From assembly GCA_025774865.1 (NCBI GenBank), contig JALGZO010000351.1, positions 1 through 9,485 of the forward strand: a DNA stretch of 9,485 nt, given 5' to 3'. Numbering within the stretch: the stretch's first letter is position 1; every line of letters begins with the position of its first letter. A program made the position numbers and the translations under genes. Under the pieces are notes generated by a model. The model made no database searches. It saw only the letters and a program-made list of their open reading frames with translations, and was not told where the DNA came from. This document shows positions 1,673 to 9,485 of this stretch, one piece after another. This stretch comes from a bacterium. GTDB taxonomy: Bacteria > ARS69.

Positions 1673-3187
1673 ATGCTCATGAACTCCAGCCTGCCGGTCC
1701 CCATCGAGCCGCCGCCACCGGACCCGACGCCCTCGACGCGAGTCTCCGAGTACCGCGCATCGCAGACCGCACCGTTGCACGGCGTTTCTCGCGAGAACCG
1801 GATCTTCGTGAACCGGAACCTCCGCATGCGATCGATCGCCGCCTTCGGCTTCGATCTGGATTACACGCTCGCCCGCTATCGGATTCGGGAGATCGACGAG
1901 CTCGCGTTTCGGCTCACGAAGCAAAAGCTGGTCGAGAAGCGCGGCCACCTCGAGGGAATCCTCGCCATCCCGTTCGATCCGGAGTTCGTCGTTCGCGGCC
2001 TCGTCATCGATCGCAAGCGCGGCAACATCCTGAAGATGGACTATCACAACTACGTCGCGCGCGCGTACCACGGGCGGAACCCGCTCACCACGGAGGAGCG
2101 CAAGCGCACGTACCGGATGCGCCGCGTGCGAACGTCGGCGGAGGCGTACGTGTCGGTCGACACGCTCTTCCACCTGCCCGAGGTCTATCTCTATCTCGCC
2201 CTCGTCGACTTCTACGAAGCGAAGGGCCGGACCCCTGATTTCCGCCAGCTGTATCAAGACGTGCGCGACATGATCGACGAGTCGCACGCCGACGGCTCGA
2301 TCAAATCCGAGATCCAGAAGGATCCCGGTCGCTTCGTATCCCCCGATGCGCGACTGGGCGAGTTTCTCGAGATGTTGAGGGCGGCCGGCAAGAAGGTCTT
2401 TCTCCTGACGAACTCCGAGTACTACTTCACCGACGTGCTGCTCTCCTATCTGCTCGATGGACCCGGGCGCCCGGGATGGCGCCACTACTTCGACCTCGTC
2501 ACGGTCGACGCCGGCAAGCCCGGCTTCTTTCGCGAGTCCCAGGGCGACGGCCGGTTCCTGGACGTCGACGGACCGGGCGCTCCCGTGTACGCGGGTGGTG
2601 ACGTATGGGCGCTCGAGAGAATGCTCGGATTCGCCGGCGACTCCATCCTCTACTGGGGAGACCACACGTACGGCGACATTCTCCGTTCCAAGAAGAGCGT
2701 CGGCTGGCGAACCGCCATGATCATCCCCGAGCTCGAGAGAGAGATCGCGATCACCGAGGAGATCGCACCGCTACTGAGCGAACTCGACGAGGCCGTGGAG
2801 TTGAGGAACCGCGTTCACCAGGAAGAGCAAATCGCGCGGACGGAGTGCGAGCGCCTCGCGCGGCTTCTCGAGGATGCTCGCGGTTGTGCCGCCGAGGCCC
2901 GGCGGGAGGTCGCGCGCAAGCTGCACCGCGCGCAGGAGCGATTGGCAGCGATGCGCACCGAGATGAAGCGACAGCACCGGCGGATCGCCGACCTCGATGC
3001 GACGTCGAGCGCAACCTACAACCGTCACTGGGGGATGCTGTTCCGAGAGGGTCACGAGACCACGCGCTTCGCGCATCAGGTCAAGGACTTCGCGTGCATC
3101 TATACGAGTCGCGTATCCAACTTCCTGAGCTACCCCGTGAACACGTACTTCCACTCTCCGGTGGAACGGCTACCGCACGAGCTGTAA
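1673..3187 (+). CDS. HAD-superfamily purine 5'-nucleotidase, cytosolic nucleotidase II-like
   Basis: It most likely removes the 5'-phosphate from purine nucleotides (IMP/GMP in characterised relatives) in the cytoplasm. The 504 residues match the eukaryotic cN-II family (Pfam 5_nucleotid) along their whole length. The block NRIFVNRNLRM precedes HAD motif I FGFDLDYTLA (nucleophile D61, acid/base D63). Motif II is LLTNSEYYFTD (T246-N247-S248), the motif III lysine is K282 in DAGKPGFF, and motif IV is GDHTYGDI (D330, D335), followed by SKK-GWRT. All catalytic residues are present. Residues about 363-445 form a long charged helical region, apparently longer than in human cN-II as I recall it, before the conserved end FAHQVKDFA...LSYPVNTYF...PHEL. 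The acidic tail of the human enzyme is absent. The first 35 residues are proline-rich and probably disordered. No good ribosome binding site precedes ATG 1673 or the in-frame ATG 1679, so the start is uncertain by a few residues. Substrate preference is inferred from the family. Confidence 0.92.
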   Translation: MLMNSSLPVPIEPPPPDPTPSTRVSEYRASQTAPLHGVSRENRIFVNRNLRMRSIAAFGFDLDYTLARYRIREIDELAFRLTKQKLVEKRGHLEGILAIPFDPEFVVRGLVIDRKRGNILKMDYHNYVARAYHGRNPLTTEERKRTYRMRRVRTSAEAYVSVDTLFHLPEVYLYLALVDFYEAKGRTPDFRQLYQDVRDMIDESHADGSIKSEIQKDPGRFVSPDARLGEFLEMLRAAGKKVFLLTNSEYYFTDVLLSYLLDGPGRPGWRHYFDLVTVDAGKPGFFRESQGDGRFLDVDGPGAPVYAGGDVWALERMLGFAGDSILYWGDHTYGDILRSKKSVGWRTAMIIPELEREIAITEEIAPLLSELDEAVELRNRVHQEEQIARTECERLARLLEDARGCAAEARREVARKLHRAQERLAAMRTEMKRQHRRIADLDATSSATYNRHWGMLFREGHETTRFAHQVKDFACIYTSRVSNFLSYPVNTYFHSPVERLPHEL

Positions 3188-3196
3188 GAGAGCTCC

Positions 3197-4240
3197 CTAG
3201 AAATCTGGAAAGCGCGCGTGCACGAAGTCCGGCACGTCCCCCTCGCCGTCCCAGCTCGCGAAGCGCTGCTCTTCCTTGATATCCAGCCACTCGAGCTCGC
3301 GCTCGCGCAACGCTTTGAATGAGCTGCGCGTGAGCAGCGGCTCGGGAAAGTCGAAGCGCCTGAGATCCTCGAAGCCGATGTCCGGCAGGAACCACGGCAG
3401 CTCGAGCGTCAAGTGAGGGAAGTAGATCGCGGATCCGAGGAACCGGCCATCGTCGGGCGGCGCATCGAGCCCTTGCACCATCGATCGCCAGATGACGACC
3501 GCGCTCGGCCGGTGGAACCCCCACTTCCGGACGTACTGTCCCTCGAGCTCTTCCATCGTGACGACCCGGATGGGCTGGTCACCCGCGGTATCTTGATAGG
3601 TCCGGACCGCCCCGCACGAGTGCTTCTCGTAAACCACGTGAACCCGGTCGTGGGAAAGGGTCTTCATGTCGATGTTGACGACCCGGAGCGCCTTGTCGTC
3701 GATCTCGATGGTCTCGGTCCACGCTCGCATCTTCTCGTCGGCGACGCGGATCTCGCGCTCCTCCTCGCTGTCGACCTCGAACAGCATGCAGAAACGGCCG
3801 AACCCCGCCCGGGCGTCGCGAAGATTCACGATGGGATAGAGCCCCGGATTGCGGAAGTCCCTCGTGAACGCCTCTCGGAGGTCGTCTTCGGACGTGGAGT
3901 AGATGAACTCCTCCTGCACGGCGATCTCCAGGAAGAAATCGAACGCCGTGTGGGAGTTGTAGACGAACGCCGCGAGCGCACTTTTCCGCGTGTCGCCTTC
4001 CCCGGGGACGCCGTACCGCCCGGCGCGATAGGCGGCGTCGATGCGATCCACGAGGTCCACGTTTCGCTTCGAAATCATCGTCCCGACGGAATCGATCGCG
4101 GCGGCGTCGAGATGCACCACGGGAATGTCCTGCTCGTTCATGTAGAAGAAACAGCGGTGCGAATCCGCCCCGGCGAGCCCCGGTAGGCAGAGGAGCGTGG
4201 CCAGGGGCAACAAGCATCGCACGAAGGAAGTGCGCCTCAT
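3197..4240 (-). CDS. Secreted protein of unknown function, coupled to the TRAP operon
   Basis: I do not recognise this 347-residue protein. It begins with a clear Sec signal peptide: basic MRR, a hydrophobic core to about residue 22, then AGA before D26 as a signal peptidase I site. The mature part (about 322 residues) has no transmembrane segment, repeat or familiar catalytic motif. It is rich in charged and aromatic residues and has cysteines at C30, in GRFCMLF and in KHSCGAV, so a disulfide is possible. Near the C-terminus lies a run of short hydrophobic or aromatic segments (SAIYFPHLTLELPWFLPDIGF). The start ATG at 4240-4238 overlaps the stop of the TRAP large subunit by 4 bases (ATGA). 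GGAG (4248-4251 on the + strand) lies 7 bases upstream of the ATG, so translation is coupled. A periplasmic accessory of the transporter, or an enzyme acting on its ligand, is a fair inference from context only. It ends 9 bases from the convergent nucleotidase gene. Confidence 0.85.
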   Translation of the reverse strand: MRRTSFVRCLLPLATLLCLPGLAGADSHRCFFYMNEQDIPVVHLDAAAIDSVGTMISKRNVDLVDRIDAAYRAGRYGVPGEGDTRKSALAAFVYNSHTAFDFFLEIAVQEEFIYSTSEDDLREAFTRDFRNPGLYPIVNLRDARAGFGRFCMLFEVDSEEEREIRVADEKMRAWTETIEIDDKALRVVNIDMKTLSHDRVHVVYEKHSCGAVRTYQDTAGDQPIRVVTMEELEGQYVRKWGFHRPSAVVIWRSMVQGLDAPPDDGRFLGSAIYFPHLTLELPWFLPDIGFEDLRRFDFPEPLLTRSSFKALRERELEWLDIKEEQRFASWDGEGDVPDFVHARFPDF

Positions 4241-5520
4241 GGGGTCGCTCCGCCGCGGACCAAGTCTGCGAGAAAGAGACTCAGCCAGGGAACATACGTG
4301 ATGATCGCCAACGCGACGAGCAAGATTCCGAGAAACGGGAAACACGCCCGATAGAGTTCCACAATGGACCGGTCGAACCGGAACGAGGAGATGAACAGGT
4401 TCAGACCCACGGGAGGGGTCGAGTACCCGATCTCCAGGTTCGTCAGGAAGATGATTCCGAGGTGCGTCAAGTTCACTCCATATCCTTCGGCAATCGGCAG
4501 GATCAGCGGGACCACGACGATCAGCGCCGAGAAAATGTCCATCAAGCTGCCGACGATCAGCAAGAAGATGTTCAGGGCGAGCAAGAACGTCCATTTCGAT
4601 GAGAACGCGCCCTGCATCCACTCGAGGATCCTCATCGGAACTTCGGCATCCACCAAGTAGTTCGTGAAGCCGAACGCCGAAGCCAGGATGACGAGAATCC
4701 CGGCCACGAGGACCATACTGCTTCGGATGATCTCGGGGATCTGCCGAACGGACACGTCCCGGTAGATCAGAACCTCGGCGATCAGCGCGTAGATCGCCGT
4801 GATGGAAGCGGCCTCCGTGACGGTCACCCGCCCCGAGTAGATGCCCCCCAGAACGACGAACGGCAGTGGCGCCTCCCAGGCCGCATCTCGCAGCGCCCGC
4901 CCCGCCGCGCGGCCTCGGAACCCGTGCGGGCGAACCCCCGCGAACAAGCCCCGGCGTGCGCCGTAGAGCCCGAGGAGAACGATGAGGAGCGTGCCCGGGA
5001 CGATGCCGGCCAGGAAGAGCTCGTCGACCGATACGCCGGCGACGTACGCGTAGATGATGAGAGGAAGACTGGGCGGGAACAGGAGCCCCAGCGAGCCCGA
5101 CGTCGTCACGAGGCCGAGCGAGAACCTTTCCGGGTAGCGCGCCTCCATCAGCGCCGGCAGCAGCAAACCACCCACCGCGACGATAGTCACGCCGCTCGCG
5201 CCGGTGAAGGCGGTGAACAGGGCGCAGGTGAGTAGCCCGACGAGCGAGAGACCTCCCGGGAGCCAGCCGAGAATCTCCCGGGACAGCGCGACGAGCCTCC
5301 GCGGTGCGCCTCCCGCCGCGAAGACGGCTCCGGCAAACGTGAAGAGCGGGATCGCGACGAGCATCGGCGAGCTGGCCAGACGTGTCATCTCGATGATCAC
5401 GGAGGAGCCCGCCACCCCGGCCCCCGCGAAGCTGACGAGCGCGATCAGCGCGAGGACGAGGAAGAGCGGCAGCCCGAACAGGGCGCCGACCAGGGCGAGG
5501 AGGACGACGAGGAGAATCAT
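4237..5520 (-). CDS. dctM: TRAP transporter large membrane subunit (DctM/TatM)
   Basis: The ion-coupled transport channel of a tripartite ATP-independent periplasmic transporter, in the inner membrane. At 427 residues it has the family's usual length. It is almost entirely hydrophobic, with about a dozen membrane helices beginning at residue 2. Family signatures include SPMLVAIPLFTFAG near the N-terminus, TAFTGASGVTIVAVGG, the block LLFPPSLPLIIYAYVAGVS-DELFLAGIVPG, and in the second half GSLMDIFSALIVVVPLILP and NLEIGYSTPPVGLNLFI. These two internally related halves are typical of the DctM/IT superfamily elevator fold. ATG 5520 is chosen because it starts the first helix and has GGGGAG (5525-5530 on the + strand) four bases upstream; the open frame continues upstream without family similarity. 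The ATG overlaps the stop of the small subunit by 4 bases (ATGA), and its own stop overlaps the next gene the same way. Subunit stoichiometry is thus likely set by translational coupling. Confidence 0.96.
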   Translation of the reverse strand: MILLVVLLALVGALFGLPLFLVLALIALVSFAGAGVAGSSVIIEMTRLASSPMLVAIPLFTFAGAVFAAGGAPRRLVALSREILGWLPGGLSLVGLLTCALFTAFTGASGVTIVAVGGLLLPALMEARYPERFSLGLVTTSGSLGLLFPPSLPLIIYAYVAGVSVDELFLAGIVPGTLLIVLLGLYGARRGLFAGVRPHGFRGRAAGRALRDAAWEAPLPFVVLGGIYSGRVTVTEAASITAIYALIAEVLIYRDVSVRQIPEIIRSSMVLVAGILVILASAFGFTNYLVDAEVPMRILEWMQGAFSSKWTFLLALNIFLLIVGSLMDIFSALIVVVPLILPIAEGYGVNLTHLGIIFLTNLEIGYSTPPVGLNLFISSFRFDRSIVELYRACFPFLGILLVALAIITYVPWLSLFLADLVRGGATP

Positions 5521-6170
5521 CCCGCTCCCCACTCCCGACTCAGGCGCTCGTGGGCCCCGGCTTCCTCCCCGGAGGGAGGCGCCTCGCCCGCGAGCTCCAG
5601 GAACACGAGGTAGAAGAAGCGGAACGCGAGCAACGTGAACGAAAACGGGAACACGGCCGCGACGATCCAAGCCGGCAACCCGAGAAAAACCGCCTCTCCG
5701 AACTCGATCTCCTCGAACAGGAACTGGAGCGACGCGTGCGTGAGAGCGAGGCAGACGACGGCCGACGCGGCCGCGACGATCGCGCCGCCGATTCGACGGG
5801 CGACACCCTTCAGCAGCCGGCCGAGGACGTTGATCTGAACGTGGCGCTTCGCCCCCGTCGCGATCACGGCGCCGGTGAACGCGAGCAGCAGCGTGAGGTG
5901 GCGGAGAAGCGGATCGATCCAGAGGAGACCCGATTCAAAGAGGTTCCGGAGCAGGATCTGGAGCCCCGAGAGCCCGACCATCACGAGGAGAATCGCGGCG
6001 ACGAGACCGCCCAGCAGACGGTCGACGTTGTTCCGGAGGGCCACGACCGGACGCGTGTTTCGCGCCGAGAAGAACCCGGCGGCGACGACGATGAGTACGG
6101 ACGCCCAGACCCCCAAGAACGGACCGAAGCCCGGGAGGCCTTCCAGGATGCGAGCCAGACTCTCGGCCAC
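5517..6170 (-). CDS. dctQ: TRAP transporter small membrane subunit (DctQ/TatQ) with an extra N-terminal hydrophobic segment
   Basis: The small integral membrane partner of DctM. The family core has four membrane helices, seen here at about residues 54-74, 88-106, 123-148 and 156-186. The signature is present: a W-I-D-P-LLRHL block after helix 1, then LAFTGAVIATGAKRHVQINVL, in which GA...A....H is the DctQ hallmark. The C-terminal tail (about 30 residues) is charged and cytoplasmic in the family model. The 217-residue protein is on the long side because of an additional hydrophobic stretch at residues 15-36 before the core. GTG 6170 is chosen because GAGGAG (6174-6179 on the + strand) precedes it and overlaps the binding-protein stop. 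A later GTG near LRNNVDRLL would remove the extra segment but has no ribosome binding site. The gene starts 8 bases after tatP ends and overlaps dctM by 4 bases. Family assignment is firm; the N-terminus is less so. Confidence 0.9.
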   Translation of the reverse strand: MAESLARILEGLPGFGPFLGVWASVLIVVAAGFFSARNTRPVVALRNNVDRLLGGLVAAILLVMVGLSGLQILLRNLFESGLLWIDPLLRHLTLLLAFTGAVIATGAKRHVQINVLGRLLKGVARRIGGAIVAAASAVVCLALTHASLQFLFEEIEFGEAVFLGLPAWIVAAVFPFSFTLLAFRFFYLVFLELAGEAPPSGEEAGAHERLSREWGAG

Positions 6171-6173
6171 CGG

Positions 6174-6179
6174 CTCCTC
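6174..6179 (-). promoter_or_regulatory. Ribosome binding site deciding the long dctQ start
   Basis: On the - strand GAGGAG begins with the last base of the tatP TAG stop and lies 3 bases before GTG 6170. Counting only the 5' part (AGAGG), the spacing is 5. This stop-SD-start arrangement supports the long form of the small subunit and coupled translation, though the spacing is at the short end of the usual range. Confidence 0.5.
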
Positions 6180-7216
6180 TAGGGCTCCCCTACCATGGAT
6201 GTCGCCGCCGCCTGCCGCCGATGCTCCTCGACTGCGGCGCGGATCCTGTCGAGCTCTTCCTGCGAGTACAGCGAGCCCACGCCACGTTGGGCCGCGGCGG
6301 CTCCGATGCGGCGGAAAACGCTCATCGCGTCCTCCCCGATGGGCACGACCGCGATACCCGCCTTCTGGATGTCGAGAATGGCCTCCCGGTTCTCCCGCCG
6401 TGACGCCGCCTTCAGGCGCTCGAACACGTCGGCCGCGATCTCCCGCACCTTCTCTCGCGAGGCGGGCGAGACCTTTTCGTACGCGCGCTTCGATACGATG
6501 ACGGCCCCGATCGCGTGGGTGACCGGAACCTCCGACATCGCGGCCACCTGCGTGTGCCACTGTAGAACGACGGCCGCGTATGGCGAGCAGTAGACACCGT
6601 CGATCAGTCCCGTCTGCAGGCTCGTGTAGACGTCCGTGATCGCGAGTGACACCGGCGCGACCCCCGCTTCCGCGAACAACGCCTCCGGCAGCGGGTCCCC
6701 CTCCCAAAGCCACATCTTCTGGCTACGCAGCTCCGCCAGATCCGCTACCGGCTTCTTCGTGAACAGGTGGATGAATCCGACCTCCGCCCAGCCGAGGAGC
6801 GCGTATCCCGCGTCCCCGAGCTTCCTCTCGAACTCGGAACCGAACTGCTCGTACATGGCGTCGATCTCGTCCTCGGTCTCGAGCAGAAACGGTACCTCGA
6901 GAACCCGCAGAGACGGCGCGACGGCGCCGAGCCCGTTCCCGGTGAAGCCGCCGCCGTGCAGTTGTCCGGATCGCATCTTGCGGAGCACGAGCCGCTCGTC
7001 CCCCTGGATGCCGCCCGCGTAGAACTTGAAGCCGATCTCGTTGTCGGTCGCCTCACGAACCCGGTCGTCGAGCTCGTGCATCAGGTTCATCCACGTCGAT
7101 CCTTCCGGCGCGAGCGTTGCGACTTTGAGCAGCACCTTCGGTTTCTTCGCCGCGACGCTTCCGCCGAGCGCAAGGGTGAGGATCACGGTGGTGGCGACGA
7201 CTCGGACCATTCTCAT
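6179..7216 (-). CDS. dctP: TRAP transporter periplasmic solute-binding protein (DctP family, TatP-type)
   Basis: The receptor that captures substrate in the periplasm and delivers it to the DctQM membrane complex. It is 345 residues, normal for the family. The signal peptide spans residues 1-23, ending SVAA before KKPK. There is no lipobox cysteine, so the mature protein is soluble, unlike the T. pallidum TatP lipoprotein. Family features in order: LKVATLAPEGSTW at the mature N-terminus, FYAGGIQGDERLVLRKMRSGQLHGG, LEVPFLLE, the hinge segment LRSQKMWLWEG, and LAITDVYTSLQTGLIDGVYCSPYA, the classic EVY-ALQ-G-VDG block. At the position of the conserved carboxylate-binding arginine of ordinary DctP proteins there is W169 (or L170), with K167 just before. 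The start at ATG 7216 has GGAG 7 bases upstream (7224-7227 on the + strand); an upstream in-frame start at 7267 would bury the signal peptide. It lies 13 bases after tatT and 8 bases before dctQ. The ligand is unknown. Confidence 0.95.
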   Translation of the reverse strand: MRMVRVVATTVILTLALGGSVAAKKPKVLLKVATLAPEGSTWMNLMHELDDRVREATDNEIGFKFYAGGIQGDERLVLRKMRSGQLHGGGFTGNGLGAVAPSLRVLEVPFLLETEDEIDAMYEQFGSEFERKLGDAGYALLGWAEVGFIHLFTKKPVADLAELRSQKMWLWEGDPLPEALFAEAGVAPVSLAITDVYTSLQTGLIDGVYCSPYAAVVLQWHTQVAAMSEVPVTHAIGAVIVSKRAYEKVSPASREKVREIAADVFERLKAASRRENREAILDIQKAGIAVVPIGEDAMSVFRRIGAAAAQRGVGSLYSQEELDRIRAAVEEHRRQAAATSMVGEP

Positions 7217-7229
7217 CGGACTTCTCCGT

Positions 7230-8105
7230 TCACTCGAAGATCTCTTCGCTTCGTTCGAGGAGCACATCCGCCTGGAGGCGCGCGATCTGATTGAGGAGCT
7301 CCCCGTCCGGGAGCTGGCCCGCGGGGGCTTCGAGAACTTCTCGGAGGGAGGACTCGAATGCGTCCTGGTCGAACGTCTGGACGCAGTAAGTCTTCGCGAA
7401 AAACACCTGCGCCAAGAGCAGGTTCCGGCTCGACACCTCGAACGCCCGATCGAACTCCTTTCGCGCGCGCTCCGGATCCCCGCCGAGCATCACCGGCCGG
7501 CTGGCATGCATCGCCCCCAAGAGGATCCTCGGCATCCCCCAGAAGAGAGTATCGTCCAGTTCGGCGACCCTCTCGACCAGGGGCATCAAGCGGGCGAAAT
7601 CCGCCACCGCGGCGGGACGGCCGAGGTTCAGCTCGATCCACATCCCCCAATTCCCACAGACCCAGAGGAGGGCCTCGGCGTCGCGCTCGCGAAGCTCTTC
7701 GACCGCGGCCTCCACTTCGGCGAAGCTTCCCTCGCGAATCGCGGCCGCCGTCTCGGGCCGGTCGAGCGCTTGCCACCCGAGCTCGCGCCCTCGATCGTAC
7801 AGCTCCGACGCCCGCGCCGGATCCTCCTCTTCCACGAACGCGAAGCCGTATGCGAAGTACAGCATCGATGCGAGGACGGCGATGTCGCGGTTCTTCGGAT
7901 TCGTCTCGATCATGCCTTCGAGGAGAAGAAGGCTCGTCGGGAGGGCGTCGCGCACGAGCTGCGTATCCTCGGAGCGCAGCGCGACGTCGACGGTGTTCTG
8001 GAGCACCGGCGTCATCATGTTGACGGTCATCCGGGACGTACTGCACCCCAAGGTGCCCAGAAGGACGACCGCGAGCACGATCCTCCCCCATCCCGGATGC
8101 GACAT
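7230..8105 (-). CDS. tatT: TatT-type TPR lipoprotein of a TRAP transporter (TPAT)
   Basis: This 291-residue protein belongs to the TatT family described from Treponema pallidum Tp0956, an all-helical TPR lipoprotein that forms a trimer with a central pore and binds the TRAP binding protein. A signal peptide (R8, hydrophobic core 9-19) ends at GTLGC, making C21 the likely lipidated cysteine. The -3 residue is T rather than L, so the lipobox is imperfect; S22 at +2 suggests outer-membrane sorting. Helical repeats include the segment from [18 protein letters not shown] through [12 protein letters not shown], a second around [14 protein letters not shown], and a third with [18 protein letters not shown]. 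The C-terminal block [21 protein letters not shown], then LREVL and [15 protein letters not shown] is typical of the family. It is the first gene of the operon, with a strong ribosome binding site. In this position it probably guides ligand from the outer membrane to the binding protein (inferred from the family). Confidence 0.9.
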
Positions 8106-8111
8106 ACCTCA

Positions 8112-8116
8112 CCTCC
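8112..8116 (-). promoter_or_regulatory. Strong ribosome binding site of tatT
   Basis: On the - strand GGAGG lies 6 bases before ATG 8105, within GGGAGGTGA, one of the longest anti-16S matches in the window. It fixes the tatT start. Confidence 0.7.
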
Positions 8117-8139
8117 CTGCCCCCCGCCGGGCGACCGGC

Positions 8140-8168
8140 AGTGTTCTGGGCGGTGGAGCGAGCGTCAA
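8140..8168 (-). promoter_or_regulatory. Candidate promoter of the TRAP/TPAT operon
   Basis: Read on the - strand, TTGACG (8168-8163, 5 of 6 to the -35 consensus) is followed after 17 bases by AACACT (8145-8140, 3 of 6 to the -10). Transcription would begin near 8133, giving a leader of about 28 bases before tatT. The -10 is weak, so an activator or a different sigma factor may be involved. This is the best match by eye in the 170-base divergent gap; no convincing promoter for the + strand gene was found there. Confidence 0.3.
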
Positions 8169-8265
8169 GGCGAATCCGCGAACGGTCCTGCCCCACTTTC
8201 CCCGATTCCAGAAACTTCCACGATGTCCCCCGAGTACCATGCGCACCAGGGTATGCTGGATCGTC

Positions 8266-8269
8266 GAGG
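8266..8269 (+). promoter_or_regulatory. Ribosome binding site deciding the start of the thioredoxin-fold gene
   Basis: GAGG lies 6 bases before ATG 8276. The open frame extends upstream to a GTG at 8141, but starting there would place about 45 unrelated residues in front of the signal peptide, so ATG 8276 is preferred. Confidence 0.5.
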
Positions 8270-8275
8270 TCGATC

Positions 8276-9485
8276 ATGGTTTGCAGGCTCCGCCGAATGA
8301 CCCTCTTCCTCTCCGTCGCGGCGAGCCTCGTCGCGGCGACCGCGGCTTCCTCGGGAGAGGGTCGAAGGCCGTTGCCCGGCCCGGAGGAGATCGCCGCGCT
8401 GCCCGACGACGGCGGACCGGAGTGGAACCGGCTCATCTTCGAGCAAAGCCCCTACCTCCTTCAGCATGCCGGCAACCCCGTGGATTGGTACCCGTGGGGC
8501 GAGGAGGCCTTCGCGAAGGCCACGGCCGAGGACAAGCCGATCTTTCTCTCCATCGGCTACTCCACCTGCCACTGGTGCCACGTCATGGAGACGGAGTCGT
8601 TCGAAGACGACGAGGTCGCCGACCTCCTGAACGAAGGATTCGTCTGCGTGAAGCTCGACCGGGAGGAACGACCCGACGTCGACCAGGTCTACATGTCGAT
8701 CACGCAAGCGATGAACAACCGCGGCGGCTGGCCCATGACGGTCGTGATGTCGGCGGACAAACGGCCGTTCTTCACCGGGACGTACTTCCCGAAGCATGGT
8801 CGGTACGGCCGCACGGGCATGATGGAACTCCTCCCCGAGCTGAAGCGCCAGTGGGAAGAGGATCGGCCGCGCCTCCTCGACTCGTCCGCAAAGGTGCTCG
8901 CGCGCGTCCAGCTCAGCCAGACGGGGCCACGCGCGGAGCTGCTCGGAGCCTCAGCGCTCGACTCGGGCTTCCTTCAGCTCAGTCGCCGCTACGACCGCCA
9001 GCTGGGCGGTTTCGGCAACGCGCCGAAGTTCCCGATCCCGCACAACCTGCGCTACCTGCTCCGCTACTGGAGAAGGACCGGAAAGGACGAGGCCCGGCAG
9101 ATGGTCGAGACGACGCTCGACGAGGGATCACGTGGGCTTCGGCTTCCACCGCTACTCGACGGATCGCGTCTGGCTCGTCCCCCACTTCGAGAAGATGCTC
9201 TACGATCAGGCGCTCCTCGCCATGGCCTACGTCGAAGCGTTCCAGGCGATCGGCGACCCGGCGTACGCCCGCACGGCACGGGAGATCTTCACTTACGTCC
9301 TGCGCGACATGACGTCGCCCGAGGGCGCGTTCTACTCCGCCGAGGACGCCGACAGCGAGGGCCGGGAGGGGAAGTTCTATCTCTGGCAACCGGATGAGGT
9401 CATCGGCGTGCTCGGCGCCGAGGAGGGAGAGCTCTTCAACTCCGTCTTCGACATCACGGCCCAAGGCAACTTCCGGGACCCGCAC
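8276..9485 (+). CDS. Exported thioredoxin-fold protein, DUF255/SPATA20/YyaL family; frame broken near 9125 and 3' end outside the window
   Basis: Relatives (bacterial YyaL, human SPATA20) join an N-terminal thioredoxin-like domain (Thioredox_DsbH) to an alpha/alpha barrel resembling sugar epimerases; no reaction is firmly established. The N-terminus has a signal peptide (VCRLRR, hydrophobic core, ATAA before SS near residue 24), so the product is exported. Family motifs follow: [23 protein letters not shown], then [10 protein letters not shown] with the redox pair C98 and C101, [19 protein letters not shown], and [11 protein letters not shown] (243-253). The frame holds to E283 (GAG at 9122-9124). 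One extra base (9125) then shifts it, and the family sequence resumes in another frame as [11 protein letters not shown] (from 9126), [12 protein letters not shown] and [11 protein letters not shown], open to the window edge. The short glycine-rich motif expected between TLD and DH is absent. Without correction, the original frame runs on nonsensically to TGA 9395-9397. This is either a recent pseudogene or a sequence/assembly error. Roughly the first 60% of the family length is present. Confidence 0.88.
9116..9134 (+). other. Frameshift junction with a short apparent deletion
   Basis: Codons CTC GAC GAG (9116-9124) end the first frame, base 9125 is unpaired, and GAT CAC GTG (9126-9134) opens the second. 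Family members have about eight residues between TLD and DH, including a GGI-type motif, which needs about 24 bases. Only 4 are present, so a deletion of about 20 bases, not a multiple of three, explains both the missing residues and the shift. The size is estimated from remembered relatives, not an alignment. Confidence 0.7.

Follow-up and report, generated by a model that had tools for sequence, protein, structure and literature searches.

The locus considered here raises the question of why a TRAP transporter operon of the TPAT type should carry a gene for an additional exported protein directly after its last permease gene, and what that protein does. The hallmark of a TPAT is a TatT trimer that binds TatP and has a hydrophobic pore. 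The sequence-only reading that drew attention to this gene knew of no fifth secreted TPAT protein, and none is described in the searchable literature, where the components are T, P, Q and M only. We use "X" for the 347-residue exported protein encoded at 4240-3197 on the minus strand of the window, that is, the whole 9,485-nucleotide stretch of DNA that was analysed (contig JALGZO010000351.1). X adds a lineage-specific gene to a transporter operon of a known kind. The explanation that we tentatively place first, with slightly less than even confidence, is that it is a lineage-specific periplasmic accessory of the TPAT of its phylum, probably one that handles or docks a hydrophobic ligand together with TatT and TatP.

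All four components of such a transporter are encoded upstream of X on the same strand and are matched by Pfam, so that the TPAT-type setting claimed for X was confirmed. The operon begins with tatT (8105-7230), the T component (PF16811, 227 bits; cut-off 26.5), whose lipobox, LGTLGC, was read from the sequence, and continues with tatP (7219-6179), which encodes a DctP-type solute-binding protein (PF03480, 123 bits; NF037995). These are followed by dctQ (6170-5517) for the small TRAP permease (PF04290, 60 bits), with a GTG start and a GGAG read from the sequence, by dctM (5520-4237) for the large permease (PF06808, 267 bits; TIGR00786, 354 bits), and then by X. A PF16811 TatT lipoprotein, a DctP binding protein of the TatP kind and DctQ and DctM in the same operon together place the system among the TPATs, and TatP(T) Tp0957 is the second-best PDB match of the window tatP (E 1.5e-22, with most of the length aligned). 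Four-base overlaps occur at two junctions, dctQ/dctM (5517-5520) and dctM/X, and a promoter scan over 3100-8400 found none, with 0.4 expected by chance. On the other side of X lies a convergent gene for a HAD-type 5'-nucleotidase (PF05761), separated by a 9-base gap. At the far end of the window (8141-9485), a DUF255/Thioredox_DsbH gene (PF03190, 251 bits) seems to be frame-shifted near 9120-9135, through either an assembly error or a real disruption.

The X frame is not a chance one, since it is preserved, together with the signal peptide and the place in the operon, in homologues from four other genera (G001-G004, 49-63% identity). The start codon of X, an ATG, and the stop codon of dctM share bases in an ATGA (4240-4237), and a GGAG ribosome-binding site (4251-4248) is located within dctM with a spacer of 7. 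The N-terminus reads MRRTSFVRCLLPLATLLCLPGLAGA|DS, by eye a Sec signal peptide of residues 1-25 (4240-4166) with the cleavage context AGA|DS and without a lipobox, and the n- and h-regions are similar in the four orthologues. The coordinates and length given in the sequence-only reading were correct, although the minus strand was left unstated, and the export signal, the overlapping start and the separate ribosome-binding site that it described all stand. Its failure to recognise a domain was equally well founded, given searches of Pfam, NCBIfam and the PDB with single sequences and of the PDB with a 10-sequence profile.

X belongs to an exported protein family that is absent from Pfam and NCBIfam. 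Searched alone, it had no match in Pfam, NCBIfam or the PDB at E thresholds of 1, 1 and 10, respectively, and ten members of the family searched singly gave stray matches only (best E 0.22 in Pfam and 0.045 in NCBIfam), while the best PDB match of the 10-sequence profile was at chance level (E 0.43). Structure prediction was of little help. AlphaFold2 with four input sequences returned a model too poor for fold assignment (pLDDT 42.5), in which pLDDT was near or above 70 only in an N-terminal helical stretch and a short stretch around residues 280-295 (mature numbering), and the C-terminal 219 residues modelled alone reached 34.0. Foldseek with the first of these models gave 99 PDB matches at E <=10, none at E <=0.001 among the 50 listed, and we give this search no weight. 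The DctP, TAXI and TatT folds show no sequence match to X, the models being too poor for comparison of folds, and no X relatives were found on the viral contigs scanned. Could X be an enzyme of the periplasm, processing the ligand either ahead of its binding to TatT or TatP or afterwards? Its size, its export and a block of polar residues that hardly vary in the alignment (R238, K239, H243, D292, and R294), common to transporter-linked and free-standing forms, would suit such a role, but X matches no enzyme family or solved structure, singly or by profile, and we regard this as distinctly improbable.

Within the phylum, the association of X with the transporter is consistent. X lies immediately 3' of dctM, with a signal peptide, in 5/5 phylum genomes examined, which represent five genera, as had been claimed for the window. 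The dctM stop and X start overlap as ATGA or GTGA in four of these; in the fifth (G004) the earliest start codon that seems plausible, a GTG, comes about 18 bases past the dctM stop. Pairwise identity among the five copies is 43-61% for X, close to that of dctQ (41-60%), and 72-80% for dctM, and the five TPAT-linked X copies form one clade with a support of 100/100. In G003, a thyX-like gene stands between the nucleotidase and X with the dctM-X junction intact, and G001 also encodes an unrelated fused-type TRAP permease, which is followed by a UspA-like gene and not by X. Membership of X in the operon is well supported: in this phylum, genuine TPAT operons carry it as a conserved fifth gene. 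The constant order, the overlaps, the monophyly, the dctQ-like divergence, the intact G003 junction and the absence of X beside the fused-type permease were all counted in favour of X as an accessory, as was its occurrence in TatT-bearing genomes.

However, the order of rpiA, HTH and nucleotidase genes around the operon is also conserved as far as the contigs reach, so that the linkage of X to the TPAT is in part a matter of common descent, and we counted this wider synteny against an accessory role. It fits a second explanation, which we consider quite conceivable while leaning away from it, namely that X is a passenger in the operon, an exported envelope protein that has a separate task and is co-translated with dctM because of an ancestral insertion at this site. 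Unlinked homologues in two other phyla, whose neighbours are not coherent, point the same way, as do TPATs elsewhere that lack X. Against this, X has been strictly kept across five diverged genera, with a start/stop overlap in four, and is found only in TatT-bearing genomes.

The unlinked homologues came from profile searches outside the phylum over 386, 80, 3, and 387 genomes (overlapping sets), which added six genomes; one phylum contributed G152 and G290, and another G176, G386, G459, and G461. The family is thus rare outside the phylum of the window. These relatives are exported members of the same family, with 26-38% identity to X in those aligned, and have RKWGxH-, LPDI-DLR-, and RFPD-like motifs in common with X. 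Unlike X, none lies inside a TRAP operon, and every free-standing copy with a readable N-terminus carries a CxxC after the signal peptide that is absent from all five TPAT-linked copies. Free X and tatT lie 13 kb apart in G176 and about 3 kb apart in G152, but they are separated by >400 kb in G386 and G459, whose genomes are complete, and fall on separate contigs in G290 and G461; on the strength of the last four genomes, the idea that the two genes are generally linked outside the phylum was rejected. The sequence-only reading, which would have been damaged by scattered homologues unlinked to TRAP genes, thus held inside the phylum, where X follows dctM throughout, and failed outside it, where the homologues lie apart from TRAP genes.

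The neighbours of free copies also bear on whether X, instead of serving uptake, takes part in building the envelope or in the chemistry of the cell surface. In G152, the gene after the X homologue on the same strand encodes an Alg9/PMT-like glycosyltransferase, and an X fragment in G000 adjoins a gene for a lysyl-PG-synthase-type membrane protein, yet such neighbours are common neither to the other free copies nor to the TPAT-linked clade, and we hold this explanation to be highly improbable. Two details of these contigs deserve mention. In G152 (C212, L027 5033-9751), a tatT-tatP pair without adjacent dctQ and dctM is convergent with the glycosyltransferase gene and the X homologue on the other strand. 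The G000 fragment (C680, L012 1-501) is a second X-family gene fragment at a contig edge; it groups with the G461 copy of another phylum (95/90), and its contig may be foreign because G000 is rated 8.3% contaminated.

Seen from the transporter side, X is not a general TPAT component across lineages. TatT (PF16811) was detected in 93 of 386 diverse genomes, and in a control sample of 40 TatT loci, one from each of 40 such genomes, X was found by profile in none, which indicates that X is not needed for TPAT transport generally. The stretch after dctM was variable in the 31 loci in which dctM could be placed, and X was not found after dctM in the TPAT operons of G176, G386, G458, G459, G463, G450, and G448. 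The absence from all 40 loci and the homologues outside TRAP operons in two phyla both count against an accessory role. TatT is present in 10 of the 11 X genomes; the exception, G001, has a completeness of 67% and an operon contig that begins inside dctP. In the phylum of G176, TatT occurs in 13/80 genomes and X in four, all of them TatT-bearing, for which the chance calculated by hand is 715/1,581,580 (~5e-4) with genomes treated as independent despite their kinship. This figure needs a correction for relatedness, since X is confined to two families in that phylum, and its disregard of phylogeny was likewise counted against an accessory role.

The nature of the ligand may be approached through TatP. 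Where the ordinary binding protein 4p47 reads KIRT, the window TatP reads KMWL. If the arginine of KIRT is the carboxylate-binding residue, KMWL would fit a non-carboxylate ligand. In Treponema pallidum, the TPAT TatT/TatP/TatQM (Tp0956-0958) was described as an operon of three genes, in which TatT, a lipoprotein, contains a hydrophobic pore and docks TatP, and lipid transfer to the permease was proposed (PMC5812351). The window resembles this system in its lipobox-bearing TatT of PF16811, in a TatP matching Tp0957 and in having T, P and permease in one operon, but differs in its separate Q and M genes and in the appended exported X. A hydrophobic ligand is suggested for the window by this literature together with the match of its tatP to Tp0957. 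BstC, a TatT-superfamily protein of a methanotroph, has been studied as a sterol-binding protein (PMC10942540), which suggests by analogy that a TatT-fold protein can bind lipid, although the likeness of BstC is to TatT and not to X. Taken with the comparison of the window TatP (Tp0957, KMWL), the TatT and BstC literature is the reason for proposing that X handles the ligand or acts in docking in the periplasm.

If X is an accessory of the TPAT, it would be translated from the TPAT mRNA with its translation coupled to that of DctM, and then be exported by Sec to the periplasm as a soluble protein. There it may act beside TatT and TatP on a hydrophobic ligand, which it would receive, shield or present, or it may dock TatT and TatP. 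X would have been recruited from an older family of free-standing exported proteins with an N-terminal CxxC, a motif that the linked clade lacks. We infer the physical partnership with the transporter, the class of ligand, the handling role and the direction in which recruitment took place. The more specific proposal that X is a fifth TPAT subunit, representing a new fold family and carrying or docking hydrophobic ligand between TatT and TatP, seems to us rather unlikely; if true, it would give TRAP systems an additional periplasmic carrier that is specific to one lineage. Which physiological ligands TPATs transport is largely unsettled, and X may offer a handle on what TatT and TatP carry, with both free-standing and transporter-linked forms of its family now defined.

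Some variation in the TPAT genes themselves was also observed among the loci surveyed. Six loci (L079, L098, L103, L106, L107, and L114) have tatT-tatP pairs for which dctQ and dctM were not found by profile in the stretch covered, and one TPAT operon, in G018 (C6, L105 2033-4131), has two tatP genes in a row, flanked by tatT and dctQ.
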